A DNA stretch of 26,670 bases from a virus: IMG/VR virus record IMGVR_UViG_3300010371_000102, positions 1-26,670 of that record; one strand, 5' to 3'. Shown in pieces: positions 1,409-18,167 of the stretch (its first letter is position 1; each line of letters begins with the position of its first letter). A model generated the notes under the pieces. That model did no database searches and was not told the DNA's origin. It worked only from the letters and a program-made list of their open reading frames with translations. A program made the translations under genes and the position numbers.

Positions 1409-1444
1409 TAACTAAAATACGGCAATACATGGAGGTAATTGGAG

Positions 1445-1831
1445 ATGGAGAAAACACTAACAATTGACGGTCGTAAAGTTAGGTTCAAATCAACAGCGGC
1501 AGTATCAAGACGATATAAAGCACAATTCGGTACGGATTTCTTCGGTGACTTGTTTAAAATGCTACCCATGCTTAAATCATTCGAGAGTGGGTTAGACCTC
1601 GACAATATGAATTATGAAGCATTGAAAACCATCAACTTCACCGTGTTTGAGAATGTGATTTGGGTGTTGGCTAAAACTGCCGATACGTCGATACCGGAGC
1701 CGCTCGATTGGTACGATACATTCGATGAGTTCCCAATGATGGAGATTTTACCGGAACTACAAGACATGATGATGTCGAGTTTCGGTCAGACGAATCAAAA
1801 AAAAAGCAACCATCCGGCAATAAACCGATAA
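1445..1831 (+). CDS. Tail assembly chaperone, short form (gpG-like)
   Basis: A 128-aa protein. ATG 1445 is chosen over TTG 1439 because GGAGG at 1431-1435 is 9 nt upstream of it. It begins EKTLTIDGRKVRFKSTAAVSRRYKAQFG, typical of the short tail assembly chaperones that keep the tape measure soluble during tail assembly. The C-terminal end is rich in Met and acidic residues (EFPMMEILPELQDMMM). It lies between the major tail protein and the tape measure, where all siphoviral chaperone pairs lie. A slippery run of nine A residues near its end makes a longer second product. Confidence 0.85.
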   Translation: MEKTLTIDGRKVRFKSTAAVSRRYKAQFGTDFFGDLFKMLPMLKSFESGLDLDNMNYEALKTINFTVFENVIWVLAKTADTSIPEPLDWYDTFDEFPMMEILPELQDMMMSSFGQTNQKKSNHPAINR

Positions 1832-2010
1832 GTGACGACACCTTCTTATATTTATGTAAGAAGGTAGGGCTGACAGGCGACGACATGGAAACCATGACCA
1901 TAGGTATGTGTCTCGATTATATTGATGAGTATATCGAACAGAATGACCCTAACAAAGTTAAGAAGGTTCCTGTTCGGGAGGCGTCACAAGCAGAGATTGA
2001 TAATTTCTAA
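1445..2010 (+). CDS. Tail assembly chaperone, long form by -1 frameshift (gpGT-like)
   Basis: At 1796-1806 the zero-frame codons CAA AAA AAA AGC give a classic A-run slip site. A -1 shift enters a frame open to TAA at 2008-2010 and adds about 68 residues. The extension (DDTFLYLCKKVGLTGDD, then ETMTIGMCLDYIDEYIEQNDP) is the usual T domain, with the common TIGM..DYIDEY signature. There is no independent start or ribosome binding site for this segment, which supports expression by frameshift. In well studied phages the ratio of G to GT matters for tail assembly. Confidence 0.85.
1796..1806 (+). promoter_or_regulatory. Programmed -1 frameshift slip site
   Basis: C followed by nine A (1797-1805) and G. 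In the zero frame it is read CAA AAA AAA AGC, so tandem Lys-tRNA slippage by -1 keeps pairing. No strong downstream stem was evident; the A-run alone can be efficient. It links the short and long tail assembly chaperones. Confidence 0.85.
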
Positions 2011-2029: not shown

Positions 2030-2206
2030 ATGAGAGAATACCGGTGCGCAAACTGTAACAAGTTGCTAATGAGAATCGGGGAATCAACAACCGGACAAAT
2101 TCAAGTTAAATGTGAGCGATGTAAGCAAATAACAGACGAATACGTATACCCGTCAATCACAACCCATGAACCTGTGATGATTGAGATGGAACTAGGAATT
2201 AAATAA
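2030..2206 (+). CDS. Com-like zinc-ribbon protein (Mu Com family)
   Basis: A 58-aa protein, ATG 2030 to TAA 2204-2206, preceded by TAGGTGGTG. It carries CANC (from residue 6) and CERC about 26 residues later, a four-cysteine zinc ribbon. The segment RCANCNKLLMRIG...GQIQVKCERCK matches phage Mu Com as I recall it (RC.NCNKLL, then an I-E/Q-I/V-[RK]C.RCK tail). In Mu, Com is an RNA-binding translational activator that opens a hairpin hiding the start of the adjacent mom gene. Here no mom is present; instead the next gene is the tape measure, whose ribosome binding site lies in a hairpin (2219-2250). Family assignment is strong; the target is inference. Confidence 0.85.
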   Translation: MREYRCANCNKLLMRIGESTTGQIQVKCERCKQITDEYVYPSITTHEPVMIEMELGIK

Positions 2207-2218
2207 CGAGAGCCATCG

Positions 2219-2250
2219 AGCACCCCACTACATAACAAGAGAGGGGTGCT
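2219..2250 (+). promoter_or_regulatory. Hairpin covering the tape-measure ribosome binding site
   Basis: AGCACCCC (2219-2226) pairs perfectly with GGGGTGCT (2243-2250), leaving a 16-nt loop. The 3' arm and loop edge hold the only Shine-Dalgarno-like purine stretch (GAGAGGGG, 2239-2246) of the tape-measure gene, whose TTG start is at 2255; an alternative GTG start (2246) would be in the stem itself. The four T residues after the stem also make it resemble a weak terminator. Either role would lower tape-measure output. Confidence 0.65.
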
Positions 2251-2254
2251 TTTA

Positions 2255-4924
2255 TTGTCTAAACGTGTAAAAGGGATAACGATTGAGATAAACGGTGAAA
2301 CGAAAGGTTTAGATAAAGCACTAAAAGGTGTGAACAGTACAGCGTATAAGCTGAACAGTGAACTAAGAGATGTCGAAAAACTTCTCAAATTCAGTCCGGG
2401 AAACGCTGAACTTGTCGCTCAGAAGCAAAGATTACTAGCTGAACAAGTCACAAACACGACAGAGAAATTAGACCAATTGAAACAAGCGGAGGCTCAAGTT
2501 CAGGCTCAATTCGAACGAGGGGATATATCCGAGGCGAAGTATCGGGAGTTCCAGCGAGAGATTATAGAGACTGAATCGAGGTTGCGCCACTTCGAGGACC
2601 AGTTGGATTCCACACAGTCAGGGTTCGACCGTATGGCTGAGAGTGCGGCTAAAGCTGGCGAAAAGATAAAGTCAGCCGGAGAAAAGACGACAGCTATTGG
2701 TAAAAAGATGACGAAAACTGTCACAGCACCAATCGTAGGCGCGGGAGCCGCGGCTCTAAAGATGGCAATAGATTTCGAATCAGCCTTTGCTGGTGTGAAG
2801 AAGACAGTTGATGCCACAGAGGAAGAATACGAAGAATTACGTAAAGGCATCTTGGAGATGACGCAGAGTCTTCCGGCAAGCGCTGAGGAAATCGCCGCGG
2901 TTGCCGAATCAGCCGGACAACTAGGGATAGCAAAGGAAAACATATTAGCCTTCACCCGAACGATGATTGACCTCGGTGAATCCACAAATATGACATCCGA
3001 GGTAGCGGCGACACAGCTCGCTCGATTCGCAAACATCGTAAATATGTCACAAGGTGATTTCGATAGGTTGGGTTCAAGCGTCGTGTCACTAGGTAATAAC
3101 TTCGCCACAACGGAGGGCGAAATTGTAGCAATGGCTATGCGTTTAGCCGCACAGGGTAACATTGTCGGTATGTCCGAAGCTCAAATCACAGCTTTATCTG
3201 CCACGATGAGTTCTCTTGGGGTAAATGCGGAGGCTGGCGGTACAGCAATGACGACCATCCTCAAGAAGATAAATGCCGCTGTTGGTGAGGGTGGGGCTTC
3301 ACTTAAAGGATTTGCCGATACCGCGGGCGTTAGTTCTGCCGAATTCGCCAAGTTGTGGAAAGATGAACCTGTTGCCGCACTAGATGCTTTTGTTAAAGGT
3401 CTAGCTGAATCAGGAGCCGCTGGTGAGAACATGGCTTCCATATTGGCTAACTTAGGAATTAAAGGTATCCATGAATCCGACGTATTGCAACGTATGACTG
3501 GTAACACGAAGCTATTATCTGATGCGGTAAACCTATCAACAAAAGCGTGGGAGGAAAACACAGCATTATCTAATGAGGCGGCTCAGAGATATGAGACTAC
3601 CGCATCACAAATGAAAATATTGTGGAACAACATAAAAATCCTAGCGATTGAGATTGGCGATGTGTTAATTCCGATGCTCGTTGACTTGATTGAGTGGTTG
3701 ACACCAATCATTCAGAGTTTCTCAGGTATGAGTGACAGTACGAAACGACTAATTGTCGTTATCGGGGGTATCGCCGCCGCCATAGGACCATTACTGATAG
3801 TCTTGGGTATGATGGCTCAAGGATTGGGCGCGATACTCACGATGGCTCCGGCGATAGGGGCGGCGCTCACAGTGATGACGGGTCCTATTGGTCTAGTGAT
3901 TGCCGCCATAGCCGCACTCGTTGCCATTGGTGTGATTCTTTATAAAAACTGGGATTCAATCAGTGAGTGGTTTGTTGAATTGTGGGACTCCATAACAGAA
4001 ACATTCACATCAGCCATTGAAGGTATCGCCGAGTTCTTCTCTGGTGTATGGGATAACATGAGTTCTGTGGTGTTTGCGGTGTGGGATGTCATCAAACAAT
4101 ACCTCGGTAATGTCTGGACGATTATCAAGAATATATTCGTTGGCGGATTCGCTATCATCCTTGCCTTATTCACAGGACAGTGGGAAGAAGCGTGGAATAT
4201 CACCAAGCAAGTATTCATGAACATCGTTACGGCGGCGGCAGAGAACCTGTTATTATTGAAAGACTTGTTCACGTCTGGTCTAACGGCAATCGCTGACTTC
4301 TTCAAGTTCATCTGGGGTGGCATCAAGACATTCTTCACAGAAACAATCAAAGAGATTGTTGTGAATGGTCTCACTCAGTTCGGACATTTCGTATTAAACA
4401 TCATCAAAACAGTATCCGAGTTACCGGCTAAAATACGTGAACTCTTAGGTGAAGTATTATCATTTTTAGCGAATATCGACCTCAAACAAATCGGTATTGA
4501 TATGATTATGGGTCTCATCAAAGGTATCGTGTCAATGGCTAAAGCTGTGGTGGATAGCGTCAAGGGTGTTGTCGATGGAGCCATCAAGGGTGCTAAAGAC
4601 ATCCTCGATATTCACTCCCCATCACGAGTATTCCGAGAAATCGGTATATTCACAGGTGAAGGGTTAGAACAAGGGTTGCTATCTATGGGTGGTCGTGTGG
4701 AAAGAGCTAGTGAGAAAATGGCAAGTTTCACTATTCCTGAGAATACACCACAAATAGACACACCAGAACCATCCGGTTCACAGCGTGACTCTGGTGGGGA
4801 TTCACAACATCAAGGTCCACTCATCTACATCGAAAACATGAATGTTCGTGACGAAGAAGACATCCAGCGATTAAGCAGAGAGCTGTATGCTTTAATAGAA
4901 AGAGCGAAACGAGGACGAGGGTGA
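2255..4924 (+). CDS. Tape measure protein
   Basis: An 889-aa protein from TTG 2255 (a GTG at 2246 would add three residues but overlaps the hairpin and lacks spacing to a ribosome binding site). A coiled-coil N-terminus (repeated Q/E/R-rich heptads, residues 20-125) leads into a TP901-type core (about 125-480, with ESAFAGVKKTVDATEEEYEELRKGILEMTQSLPAS). Hydrophobic segments follow at about 500-570 (LIVVIGGIAAAIGPLLIVLGM and similar), then amphipathic Trp-rich repeats and a C-terminal DIHSPSRVFREIG motif found in many tape measures. It sets tail length; at the usual 0.15 nm per residue it predicts a tail near 130 nm. A terminator-like hairpin overlaps its stop. Confidence 0.93.
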   Translation: MSKRVKGITIEINGETKGLDKALKGVNSTAYKLNSELRDVEKLLKFSPGNAELVAQKQRLLAEQVTNTTEKLDQLKQAEAQVQAQFERGDISEAKYREFQREIIETESRLRHFEDQLDSTQSGFDRMAESAAKAGEKIKSAGEKTTAIGKKMTKTVTAPIVGAGAAALKMAIDFESAFAGVKKTVDATEEEYEELRKGILEMTQSLPASAEEIAAVAESAGQLGIAKENILAFTRTMIDLGESTNMTSEVAATQLARFANIVNMSQGDFDRLGSSVVSLGNNFATTEGEIVAMAMRLAAQGNIVGMSEAQITALSATMSSLGVNAEAGGTAMTTILKKINAAVGEGGASLKGFADTAGVSSAEFAKLWKDEPVAALDAFVKGLAESGAAGENMASILANLGIKGIHESDVLQRMTGNTKLLSDAVNLSTKAWEENTALSNEAAQRYETTASQMKILWNNIKILAIEIGDVLIPMLVDLIEWLTPIIQSFSGMSDSTKRLIVVIGGIAAAIGPLLIVLGMMAQGLGAILTMAPAIGAALTVMTGPIGLVIAAIAALVAIGVILYKNWDSISEWFVELWDSITETFTSAIEGIAEFFSGVWDNMSSVVFAVWDVIKQYLGNVWTIIKNIFVGGFAIILALFTGQWEEAWNITKQVFMNIVTAAAENLLLLKDLFTSGLTAIADFFKFIWGGIKTFFTETIKEIVVNGLTQFGHFVLNIIKTVSELPAKIRELLGEVLSFLANIDLKQIGIDMIMGLIKGIVSMAKAVVDSVKGVVDGAIKGAKDILDIHSPSRVFREIGIFTGEGLEQGLLSMGGRVERASEKMASFTIPENTPQIDTPEPSGSQRDSGGDSQHQGPLIYIENMNVRDEEDIQRLSRELYALIERAKRGRG

Positions 4925-14127: not shown

Positions 14128-14364
14128 GTTGCCAACAGAAGGTCCAATCAGTCGATTGAAGTCTGTCGTGTCGAGTGGCGGGTGTGTGCCGCTCGGTACG
14201 ACGTGCTGTCATTATCGGTATATCATACGCACCGTATGCGCATGCCGTACGTATGGTATAATCCCTGCATATGAGTTACGTATATGGTTTGATATGCCGT
14301 GTGACATACTATGCGTATGTGATACGTATACTATATATTTCCTGTGTAACACCCGGTGTGAAAC

Positions 14365-14434
14365 CCTGTGCAGTATCCTGTGCGACATACGGTGTGTGAC
14401 CTGTGCAGTATTCTGTGTGGTATACGGTGCGTAT
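14365..14434 (+). repeat. Tandem 35-bp repeat, two copies plus a partial
   Basis: Units 14365-14399 and 14400-14434 both begin CCTGTGCAGTAT and contain ATACGGTG near the end; they agree at roughly three quarters of positions. A partial third relative starts at 14341 (CCTGTGTAACAC). No gene overlaps them. They lie just upstream of the promoter at 14465. Confidence 0.65.
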
Positions 14435-14464
14435 TCTTTTATGTATGAACCCTAAAAGATTTTC

Positions 14465-15385: not shown

Positions 15386-15741
15386 GTGTGATTATCCCTC
15401 TATATATTTTCTCTATAATTTTCTGAATAGTTTGCACTTAGTGGTACATAACCGTCACAAATCGAGAAGTTGCCGTTTTTGTGACAGTCGAGCATTATGG
15501 GGTCCAAAACGCTATACGCTCAGGTATTCGAGTGGTCAATGAGCGACACAAATAGTGTCACAAATATATTTGTGACGTTTTTAGCGTTATTTGTGACGTT
15601 TCGTCTCAAACCATTGATACATCAGCGTTTTGGTGGAAAATGAGTGTCACAAATATGAGTCGAAATGTCACAAATCCGAGCCGAAAATAGCCATTTGTCA
15701 CAAATATAAGCCCCCTTTTAGCTGTTTTCGTGCATTTATCC

Positions 15742-15750
15742 TGTGGATAA
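15742..15750 (-). promoter_or_regulatory. DnaA box, perfect consensus
   Basis: TGTGGATAA, the exact complement of the consensus TTATCCACA. It sits in the AT-rich core between the two iteron groups, in a short palindrome (TTATCC-TGT-GGATAA). Confidence 0.75.
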
Positions 15751-15813
15751 CTTTTTATAATTATACGGTAAGATGTATGAATATAACCACTAAATATATA
15801 CGAATCAAGGGAA

Positions 15814-16167
15814 GTCACAGAAAAAAGGGGGTTTGTCGTCGTAACCGATGATATATTTGTGACACTTCGGGTGATTTTTGTGACGTTTCGCTTTGTATTT
15901 GTGACAAATCGCCCTATATTTGTGACGTTTTCGTTCTTTTTGTGACACCTCTTTCGCATAACACCGGGCTTTGTAAGGTCTTTTCTCTTATTTGTCACAA
16001 ATATAAATGAGAAATATATAGAACAATGCAGTACCCTATCGTATATATACATGTGGATAAGGGAGCGCCCACATATAATGTTGTTGTTTTAATTTGTGAC
16101 ACATAAAAACGAATGGATTTACGAAGCGATTTATTTAGGCTACGACAGCTCCCCTTTTTTCTGTGAC
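15814..16167. repeat. Inverted repeat bounding the right half of the origin
   Basis: GTCACAGAAAAAAGGGG (15814-15830) and CCCCTTTTTTCTGTGAC (16151-16167) are exact reverse complements, 17 bp. The pairing continues with gaps: GTCGTA (15838-15843) and TACGAC (16141-16146). The arms enclose six iterons and one DnaA box. They could form a cruciform, or allow the enclosed part to invert. Confidence 0.75.
16052..16060 (-). promoter_or_regulatory. Second DnaA box, perfect consensus
   Basis: TGTGGATAA again, in the same orientation as the box at 15742-15750 and 310 bp away, between two widely spaced iterons. Confidence 0.72.
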
Positions 16168-16484: not shown

Positions 16485-16499
16485 GGGGGAATGGACACT

Positions 16500-18167
16500 A
16501 TGGCGAACTTATACAAACAGGATGTTGACAAATGGCTTGAGGAATTACTAAAGGATACACCGAAACCTGATGTACCTACATTAGAAGTATTAGAAACTGT
16601 AAAAGAAGCGGCATTGAATGCGAAGATAGCGAATGTTGAAGAATATAACATGTCAGTCAGTTCACGAATGAGACGACGAGTACCTGAGAACTTGAGCGAG
16701 TTAGATGTGGCGGCAATCTTACTTCATCTGTTCACGTTTAGGAAAATCAAGATGTCGAACGCGTCAGACGGTGAATTACTAACTGTATACGTTCCGGGAA
16801 GCACAGATATATGGAAATTAGTCACAACGCGTAATGGTACAGCAGAAGGAATCTATACATCTAGTACAACATTGCTTGAGTACCTACCGACACGCCTGAC
16901 GATTCACAAGACAAGAGAAATCGAAGAAGTCCTTTCGATGGTTGCACGTTATGCTCCAATCGTAGAAACGACGAACGACAGCCACCTGTTTCCTGTGAAT
17001 AACGGTGTGTTCAATCAGAAGACAGGTATCCTAGAGTCATTCACACCCGATTACGTGTTCATGTCGAAGATTGGGATTGATTATGAGAAGGGTCTGACAA
17101 ACCCGGTTATACAGAATCCTGACGGCACACAGTGGGATGTGGAATCAGGGTTACGAGAACTAGCTGTCAGTGATGACGTAAACGCCTTGTTCTGGCAAGT
17201 TATCGCGGCATCACTACAACCAAACCGCGGGATGAACAAGTCGATTTGGTTTTACTCAGAGTCCGGTAACAATGGTAAAGGAACAATCGGTCAACTCATC
17301 AAGAATCTACTTGGTATAGGGAATTACGCATCGTTATCCGTAGTGGATTTCAAGCATGAATTCCACAAGCAAGCACTAATCGGTGTAGCGGCTAACATTG
17401 CTGACGAGAACGATGTAGATGAATATATTGATTCCGTCAAAGATTACAAGGCTAGTATCACAGGTGACGACATTCTAATCAACCGTAAACATAAAGACCC
17501 GATTCGGTTACAGTTCAGAGGACTGAACATCCAAATGATGAACGGACTACCGAAAACGAAAGATAAAACAGGTTCCTTCTATCGACGAATCATCATCGTA
17601 CCGTTCACCAAGAGCTTCACAAACAACGGAGAGCGAACGTACATCAAGGATGACTACATCGGCAGACGCGACGTACTAGAATATGTATTATCTAAAGCGC
17701 TATCGTTACAGTTCGATGAGTTCATCGTACCGATGGAATCGGCAATGGTACTCGACCAGTACAAAGAGAAGAACAATCCAGTGTTGAACTTCTGGAATGA
17801 AATCAAAGAGGAATTGAAGTGGGATTTAGTACCGAGCAAATTCCTGTATGACCTGTATCGTAAATGGTTCGAGCGTACGAATCCAAGTGGAAAAGTTATC
17901 GGTCAAGGTGTATTCTACGAACACCTATCCCCAATCATCGACAGTGATGGTGAATGGGAGAACCGAATCGGAAGCGATAAGTCGAATGTACGAACGGGTA
18001 CAAAGATGGATGCTGATGAGCCACTCATCACGGAATACGGATTAGATAAAGACGAAAAAAATGGCTCACCCTCACCGTGGGTGAACCAAAGCTATACCGG
18101 TAACAATAATTCGATGAAGCGAGACTTCGCTAGAAAGAATGCTTACAAGGGCATTCTGAGAAACTAA
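16500..18167 (+). CDS. SF3 / D5-type replicative helicase
   Basis: A 555-aa protein; ATG 16500 has AAGGGGGA (16483-16490) 9 nt upstream, better spaced than ATG 16491. The segment HLFPVNNGVFNQKTGILESFTPDYVFMSKIGIDY matches the D5_N domain, then SESGNNGKGT (about residue 253-262) is Walker A, VAANIADENDVDEY motif B, and ITGDDILINRKHKDPIRLQFRGLNIQMMNGLP with FYRRIIIVPF complete a superfamily 3 helicase. The first 150 residues show no recognisable archaeo-eukaryotic primase motifs, so priming may depend on the host. It would unwind DNA at the adjacent origin. A run AAAAAAAT followed by a hairpin occurs near the end (18055-18087). Confidence 0.92.
   Translation: MANLYKQDVDKWLEELLKDTPKPDVPTLEVLETVKEAALNAKIANVEEYNMSVSSRMRRRVPENLSELDVAAILLHLFTFRKIKMSNASDGELLTVYVPGSTDIWKLVTTRNGTAEGIYTSSTTLLEYLPTRLTIHKTREIEEVLSMVARYAPIVETTNDSHLFPVNNGVFNQKTGILESFTPDYVFMSKIGIDYEKGLTNPVIQNPDGTQWDVESGLRELAVSDDVNALFWQVIAASLQPNRGMNKSIWFYSESGNNGKGTIGQLIKNLLGIGNYASLSVVDFKHEFHKQALIGVAANIADENDVDEYIDSVKDYKASITGDDILINRKHKDPIRLQFRGLNIQMMNGLPKTKDKTGSFYRRIIIVPFTKSFTNNGERTYIKDDYIGRRDVLEYVLSKALSLQFDEFIVPMESAMVLDQYKEKNNPVLNFWNEIKEELKWDLVPSKFLYDLYRKWFERTNPSGKVIGQGVFYEHLSPIIDSDGEWENRIGSDKSNVRTGTKMDADEPLITEYGLDKDEKNGSPSPWVNQSYTGNNNSMKRDFARKNAYKGILRN

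Follow-up and report, generated by a model that had tools for sequence, protein, structure and literature searches.

Organization of the tail gene locus

The DNA analyzed here (the window) is IMG/VR virus record IMGVR_UViG_3300010371_000102, positions 1 to 26,670, to which all window coordinates refer. Its first 123 bases are repeated as its final 123 bases, and it is therefore probably a circularly complete phage genome of ~26.5 kb. The following features were identified among its tail genes:

828–1391, major tail protein gene
1439–2010, plus strand, tail chaperone gene: ORF 1439–1831 with an overlapping second-frame extension to 2010 (PHROG 709, E 1e-39; homologues in the same order)
2030–2206, plus strand, com-like gene encoding a CCCC zinc ribbon of 58 aa (PHROG and Pfam profiles)
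2208–2226, plus strand, Com-target-like sequence GAGAGCCATCGAGCACCCC, with 14/19 identity to the Mu 19-mer GAATGCCTGCGAGCATCCC
2212–2221, plus strand, putative Com-site hairpin GC[CAUCGA]GC, loop C-N3-GA, its loop and closing C-G pair being those known from SELEX
2219–2226, plus strand, 5' arm of the hairpin hiding the Shine-Dalgarno (SD) sequence, sharing bases with the Com-site hairpin
2243–2250, plus strand, 3' arm of the SD-hiding hairpin, with the SD core of the tape-measure gene
2251–2256, plus strand, T-rich, terminator-like tract TTTATT directly 3' of the stem
2255–4924, plus strand, tape-measure protein (TMP) gene with a TTG start at 2255 (PHROG 1272, E 4e-132; PF10145, E 4e-18; starts of homologues)

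A run of A near 1797–1805 is the probable slippage site of the tail chaperone gene, the frameshift itself being inferred. Only 19 nt separate the chaperone ORF from the com-like gene, which leaves no room there for a promoter. An earlier note on this DNA had taken the gene downstream of com to encode the TMP, and the PHROG 1272 match bears this out; its closest annotated relative is the TMP of Exiguobacterium phage vB_EauS-123 (57% identity), and the next gene in the window stands where the distal tail protein would be encoded. The proposed TTG start is likewise supported, homologues starting at the same residue with the N-termini MSKRIKG (vB_EauS-123) and VSKRVKG (locus L014).

The Com-like protein

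The product of ORF 2030–2206 is MREYRCANCNKLLMRIGESTTGQIQVKCERCKQITDEYVYPSITTHEPVMIEMELGIK. It had been described as a 58-aa zinc ribbon with the motifs RCxNCNKLL and KCxRCK, and both are present. Its assignment to the Com family is backed by PHROG 6417 ("translational regulator", E 5e-9) and PHROG 13819 ("gpCom", E 3.7e-6), but the match to Pfam PF10122 (E 1.8e-4, 21.3 bits) lies 1.6 bits under the cut-off of 22.9 bits. The Com homologue of L014 matches the PHROG gpCom profile with an E value of 1.3e-7. Residues C6, C9, C28, and C31 (CxxC...CxxC, with a CNKLL-type first knuckle) are invariant in 24 aligned sequences and would make up the expected zinc-binding set, with zinc binding itself inferred. 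In an AlphaFold model built from a 22-sequence alignment (mean pLDDT 79), confidence is good for four strands and low for the C-terminal tail, which agrees with Mu Com having been described as a zinc module with a disordered C-terminus (PMC6483171). The RNA-contact candidates proposed for Com of H. sputorum are also present in the window protein as R5, N10, K11, and R30, a correspondence resting on our own alignment. We interpret the protein as a Com-type RNA-binding zinc ribbon, RNA binding being inferred from Mu in the absence of binding data.

Searches of a phage collection by tblastn using this protein and two short Com homologues returned no matches, the proteins being very short and diverged, and a viral scan with the single com-like protein as query found no relative. 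Regulation by com of a mom or methylase gene elsewhere in the genome was considered and rejected, as no such gene was found among the ten window proteins scanned.

Two overlapping hairpins at the tape-measure start

The stem formed by AGCACCCC (2219–2226) and GGGGTGCT (2243–2250) has eight perfect pairs and one G-U pair (2218/2251), and begins 12 nt after the com stop codon, as the earlier note had stated. The same note had placed the TMP ribosome binding site in the 3' arm, and the sole SD-like sequence for TTG 2255, AGAGAGGGGTG, does lie there; GTG 2246, which is in frame with the TMP, also falls within the stem. Folding alone sets the hairpin only moderately apart from chance (z -1.9; 7 of 200 shuffles did as well), and its significance comes from its overlap with the Com site and from comparative data. 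A chance structure was considered and rejected.

The stem runs into TTTATTG, which passes the T-run count used on leaders and fails a standard terminator scan (loop limit 8). It resembles a weak intrinsic terminator as well, a feature that had gone unreported, and is on its sequence a hybrid with both SD-hiding and terminator-like features. With this tail, control in the window by translation, by termination or by both remains possible.

The target of Mu Com is 5'-GAAUGCCUGCGAGCAUCCC-3', in which the motif CC(N)2-3GAG is recognised in a hairpin loop; the closing pair is C-G, the GA is crucial, and the target partially overlaps the inhibitory structure hiding the mom start (PMC6483171). Positions 2208–2226 are the best match to the Mu 19-mer on either strand of the window (next best, 13/19), and the 17-base core is the only window match at three or fewer mismatches (0.03 expected by chance). 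A CC(N)3GAG instance, CCATCGAG, lies at 2213–2220, and CCN2-3GAGN2CC has a single occurrence on the plus strand of the window. The stem of the putative site has only two closing pairs, plus one past an A-A mismatch. As in Mu, the target match extends into the inhibitory hairpin, here into the 5' arm (2219–2226) of the SD hairpin, and since the two hairpins share bases they are predicted to be mutually exclusive. Judged by its sequence, the window thus matches the Mu switch in protein, target and overlap but not in the gene that is regulated. Position was the sole argument of the earlier note; what decides the matter is the predicted exclusion of the SD hairpin by the Com-site hairpin. No gathering-level match to Rfam was found in 15 loci, the window giving only a chance-level match.

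Com-like genes ahead of other tape-measure genes

Further com loci (labelled L followed by a number, L014 being an IMG/VR record) were found through genome searches with com alignments and through viral scans; searches of genomes from the class of a Clostridiaceae bacterium (391) and from that of a Companilactobacillus (389) added little new. Com-like genes stand directly ahead of TMP genes in at least 26 non-redundant loci, and the gene 3' of com matched TMP profiles in all ten cases tested, with several TMP families represented. The order of com, hairpin and TMP gene, whose survey in relatives the earlier note had put forward as a check, recurs, with a Com site and with a hairpin of the SD-hiding kind, in several unrelated TMP families.

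Closer to the window, L014 has the order chaperone, com, SD-hiding hairpin without T-run, TMP. It is the only one of ~36 related-TMP loci (fetched by chaperone or TMP) to carry com, and the device is therefore not shared by this TMP lineage as a whole; L085, found later via com, carries a TMP similar to that of the window. Most of the ~36 have no gene between chaperone and TMP. At the same spot, the com-less loci L005, L008, L017, and L026 have another inserted gene with a terminator, and the com-less loci L006, L018, L025, L030, and L032 have a terminator alone ahead of the TMP. Such arrangements, together with the T-rich tail on the window stem, could be taken to mean that com is a moron, an accessory insert among the late genes with its own terminator, and that the hairpin just ends a transcript and is unrelated to Com. 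Most SD-hiding loci have no T-run whatever, however, the Com site is all but missing ahead of com-less TMP genes (1/34), their terminators included, and the window offers no promoter space ahead of com, so that we give this explanation very little weight.

As an observation in its own right, a terminator-like hairpin is frequent ahead of com-less TMP genes (L005, L006, L018, L025, L030, L032, and L044), hinting that transcription is commonly thinned ahead of the TMP.

A recurring two-hairpin element

The element shared by the com loci combines a short hairpin, with a C-N2-4-GA loop and a variable stem, and a second hairpin whose 5' arm begins with the 3' strand of the first. This second hairpin is either an intrinsic terminator or one that hides the SD of the next gene. 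The stems of the short hairpin are as follows:

GC/GC: window, L072, L091, L107
GGGU/ACCC: L014, L104, L128
GGCU/AGCC: L073, L077, L123
GACU/AGUC: L059, L063, L064, L067
GUGC/GCGC: L134, L140, L153, L156
ACUC/GAGU: L178
AUGC/GCAU: Mu

Of 54 elements, 36 have the loop GA as the exact starting point of the second hairpin's 5' arm, and 47 have an overlap of at least 4 nt between the second hairpin and the site. The second hairpin ends in the SD of the next gene in L014, L060, L072, L073, L091, L095, L104, L107 and others, and a T-run in L059, L063, L067, L077, L085, L123, L134, L140, L153, L156 and others. Several com-TMP loci are among those in which the second hairpin is an intrinsic terminator and the SD is free. 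Similar TMP N-termini can be found with all of these forms, each with a Com site: the second hairpin is a hybrid in the window, hides only the SD in L014 and is of terminator type in L085.

In the discovery set of 78 non-redundant com loci, C-N2-3-GA loops with four paired flanking bases occurred 47 times near com, vs. 8.6 in shuffles (maximum 13) and 5 on the minus strand. Paired loops made up 10% of C-N2-3-GA loops near com and 2.2% in other parts of the loci. When a second hairpin was also required, 27 remained vs. 1.9 in shuffles (maximum 5), and with a T-run added 14 remained vs. 0.025. By a composite rule, whose thresholds were chosen after viewing the discovery loci but not the held-out ones, the element was present in 16 of 20 com-TMP leaders (shuffle mean 0.2 of 20, maximum 1), and four of the 20 were without it; two members of this list, L072 and L094, are close to others in it. 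In com-less TMP leaders the same rule gave 1 of 34, a weak match with a CAAAAGA loop in L044.

The first site rule, which allowed perfect pairs only, misses the subtype of the window, and a relaxed rule was then applied unchanged to 29 non-redundant loci not used before. The element was found in 18 of these, with a shuffle mean of 1.1 (maximum 5) and 3 on the minus strand. Its rate in other windows of the held-out loci (26/486, 5.3%) indicates that the composite rule has a modest false-positive rate. Six new com-TMP loci were included, with TMP identity judged by N-terminal similarity; five (L191, L202, L206, L211, L243) have an SD-type element and L195 has none by the composite rule.

Covariation, which the earlier note had proposed to look for in the SD-hiding stem, was seen in the Com-site stems, which vary with compensatory changes. 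Across 34 sites, 92.9% of outer-stem cells are paired, and the covariation score is 0.82, compared with 0.22 for shuffles and no more than 0.16 for slid controls. Many of these sites were picked with pairing in view, and the covariation is thus supporting, not independent, evidence. A MAFFT alignment of whole leaders placed the 3' arms wrongly; loop-anchored counting was used instead and whole-leader pair counts were dropped.

SD hairpins between neighbouring genes often serve translational coupling. Ribosomes finishing com could in the same way open the hairpin and expose the TMP start, with the Com protein unneeded there and having some other job. The com stop and the 5' arm are no farther apart than a ribosome footprint, and leaders are short (~40–60 nt) in most SD-hiding loci, as such coupling would have it. 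What it leaves unexplained is the recurrence of a C-N2-4-GA loop on varying stems, the match to the Mu Com target and the terminator-type loci with leaders of 90–130 nt, and we regard plain coupling as unlikely.

Proposed mechanism and relation to known systems

Com-like genes are not limited to the tape measure: they also lie ahead of portal genes (L118, L123, L135, and L153) and ahead of scaffold (L097), major head (L111) and head protease (L116) genes.

The window resembles the phage Mu com/mom switch in having a small CCCC zinc ribbon whose gene is directly upstream of the regulated gene, a hairpin with a CC(N)2-3GAG loop that overlaps the inhibitory structure masking the start of that gene, and a non-ATG start of the regulated gene (PMC6483171). 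The differences from Mu are that a tape-measure gene takes the place of the DNA-modification gene mom, that com does not overlap the gene it would control, that the relatives are found in Bacillota phages and prophages, and that the second hairpin in these relatives is often a terminator. A further parallel is found in LicT and SacY of Bacillus, protein-dependent antiterminators that act at RAT elements through mutually exclusive hairpins. There too the hairpin that the protein binds shares bases with the 5' arm of an intrinsic terminator; the fold (a zinc ribbon here), the RNA motif and the genes controlled (phage late genes, not sugar operons) differ, and our terminator class is known from sequence only.

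The earlier note had read the com-like gene ahead of the TMP-hiding hairpin as a Mu-type device. This is supported by the best Mu-target match lying on the 5' arm, by the recurrence in unrelated TMP families and by the low count (1/34) in com-less leaders, but purely translational control is too narrow, some loci being of terminator type. In the mechanism that we propose, the TMP start in the late mRNA would sit behind the hairpin 2219–2226/2243–2250, the same 5' arm also contributing to the small hairpin matching the Mu Com target. Com, made from the preceding ORF of the same message, would bind the small hairpin, as inferred from Mu, and because bases are shared this binding would prevent or open the SD hairpin; where that hairpin acts as a terminator, RNA polymerase would also be let through. 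TMP expression would then be delayed and Com-dependent relative to the upstream tail genes. The same module has the same architecture ahead of other TMP, portal, scaffold and capsid genes, where its function is inferred.

Com might instead act as a repressor, its binding keeping the leader closed or blocking the ribosome as a feedback limit on the TMP. Small RNA-binding proteins can block ribosomes, and the sign of the effect is not fixed by position alone. A stabilised Com site would nevertheless disfavour the closed state, bases being shared, and Com of Mu is an activator (PMC6483171); repression by Com accordingly seems to us very improbable. The activating direction that we prefer is itself inferred from Mu and from the shared bases, and the suggestion that Com doses the TMP is an inference, protein binding and direction of effect being untested. 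Taken as a whole, the explanation that Com captures its own hairpin, dissolves the SD/terminator hairpin and turns on the TMP is one that we consider probable, without binding or expression data. We lean, with less assurance, towards a wider view, in which Com-type zinc ribbons would form a general class of RNA switch for phage late genes, encoded directly ahead of structural genes (tape measure, portal, scaffold, capsid), binding a C-N2-4-GA hairpin that overlaps an SD-hiding hairpin or terminator and working both as antiterminators and as translational activators; com/mom of Mu would be a special case of this class.

The logic of the switch is that of Mu com/mom; the new part, not found in the searchable literature or Rfam, is its use ahead of TMP and other virion genes and its coupling to terminators. 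The only literature found on com was that on Mu, apart from a Rhodococcus phage for which a Mu-like com protein is mentioned in passing. The earlier note knew of no description of Com controlling a tail gene, and the searchable literature held none, nor any com switch ahead of other virion genes or coupled to a terminator; subscription literature was outside the scope, and a prior description is not excluded. If the proposal is true, Com would be a common regulator of virion genes, beyond DNA modification in Mu. The TMP fixes tail length and few copies are needed per virion. How phages control its amount and timing is poorly known, and a dedicated RNA-binding switch would be directly testable with a reporter. 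The recurring RNA element, absent from Rfam, could be used to annotate phage late operons.

Other features of com loci and of the window

Com-like genes also occur directly before, and often overlapping, methylase-like genes (L122, L143, L144, L145, L147, L157, L158, L164, L168, L169 and similar loci), the latter called by eye from N-terminal sequences. In L144 and L158 a Com-type hairpin lies within the 3' end of com and overlaps a hairpin near the next start codon. L090 is a prophage remnant in which com and TMP are frameshifted and a degenerate element, GAGAGCCAACGATCCCC...GGGGTG, is still kept.

Between com and a scaffold-type gene, L097, L100, L105, L114, L115, L124, L125, and L133 have between one and three hairpins in tandem, spaced by ~30 nt, in which the hexaloop AGAGAA is invariant and the perfect stems are unrelated to each other. 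AGAGAA is enclosed by a perfect stem of 4–6 bp in 19 of 20 occurrences in the leaders of these eight loci and in 0 of 13 elsewhere in them, and the hairpins are possibly an array of variant Com sites.

Elsewhere in the window, positions 14284–14444, where no gene is convincing, contain short imperfect repeats built around CCTGTGYRGYATNCTGTG. In 15550–16110, just ahead of a D5-like primase gene (16491–18167), TTTGTGAC(A) is repeated many times, with copies in either orientation, making this region a candidate replication origin.
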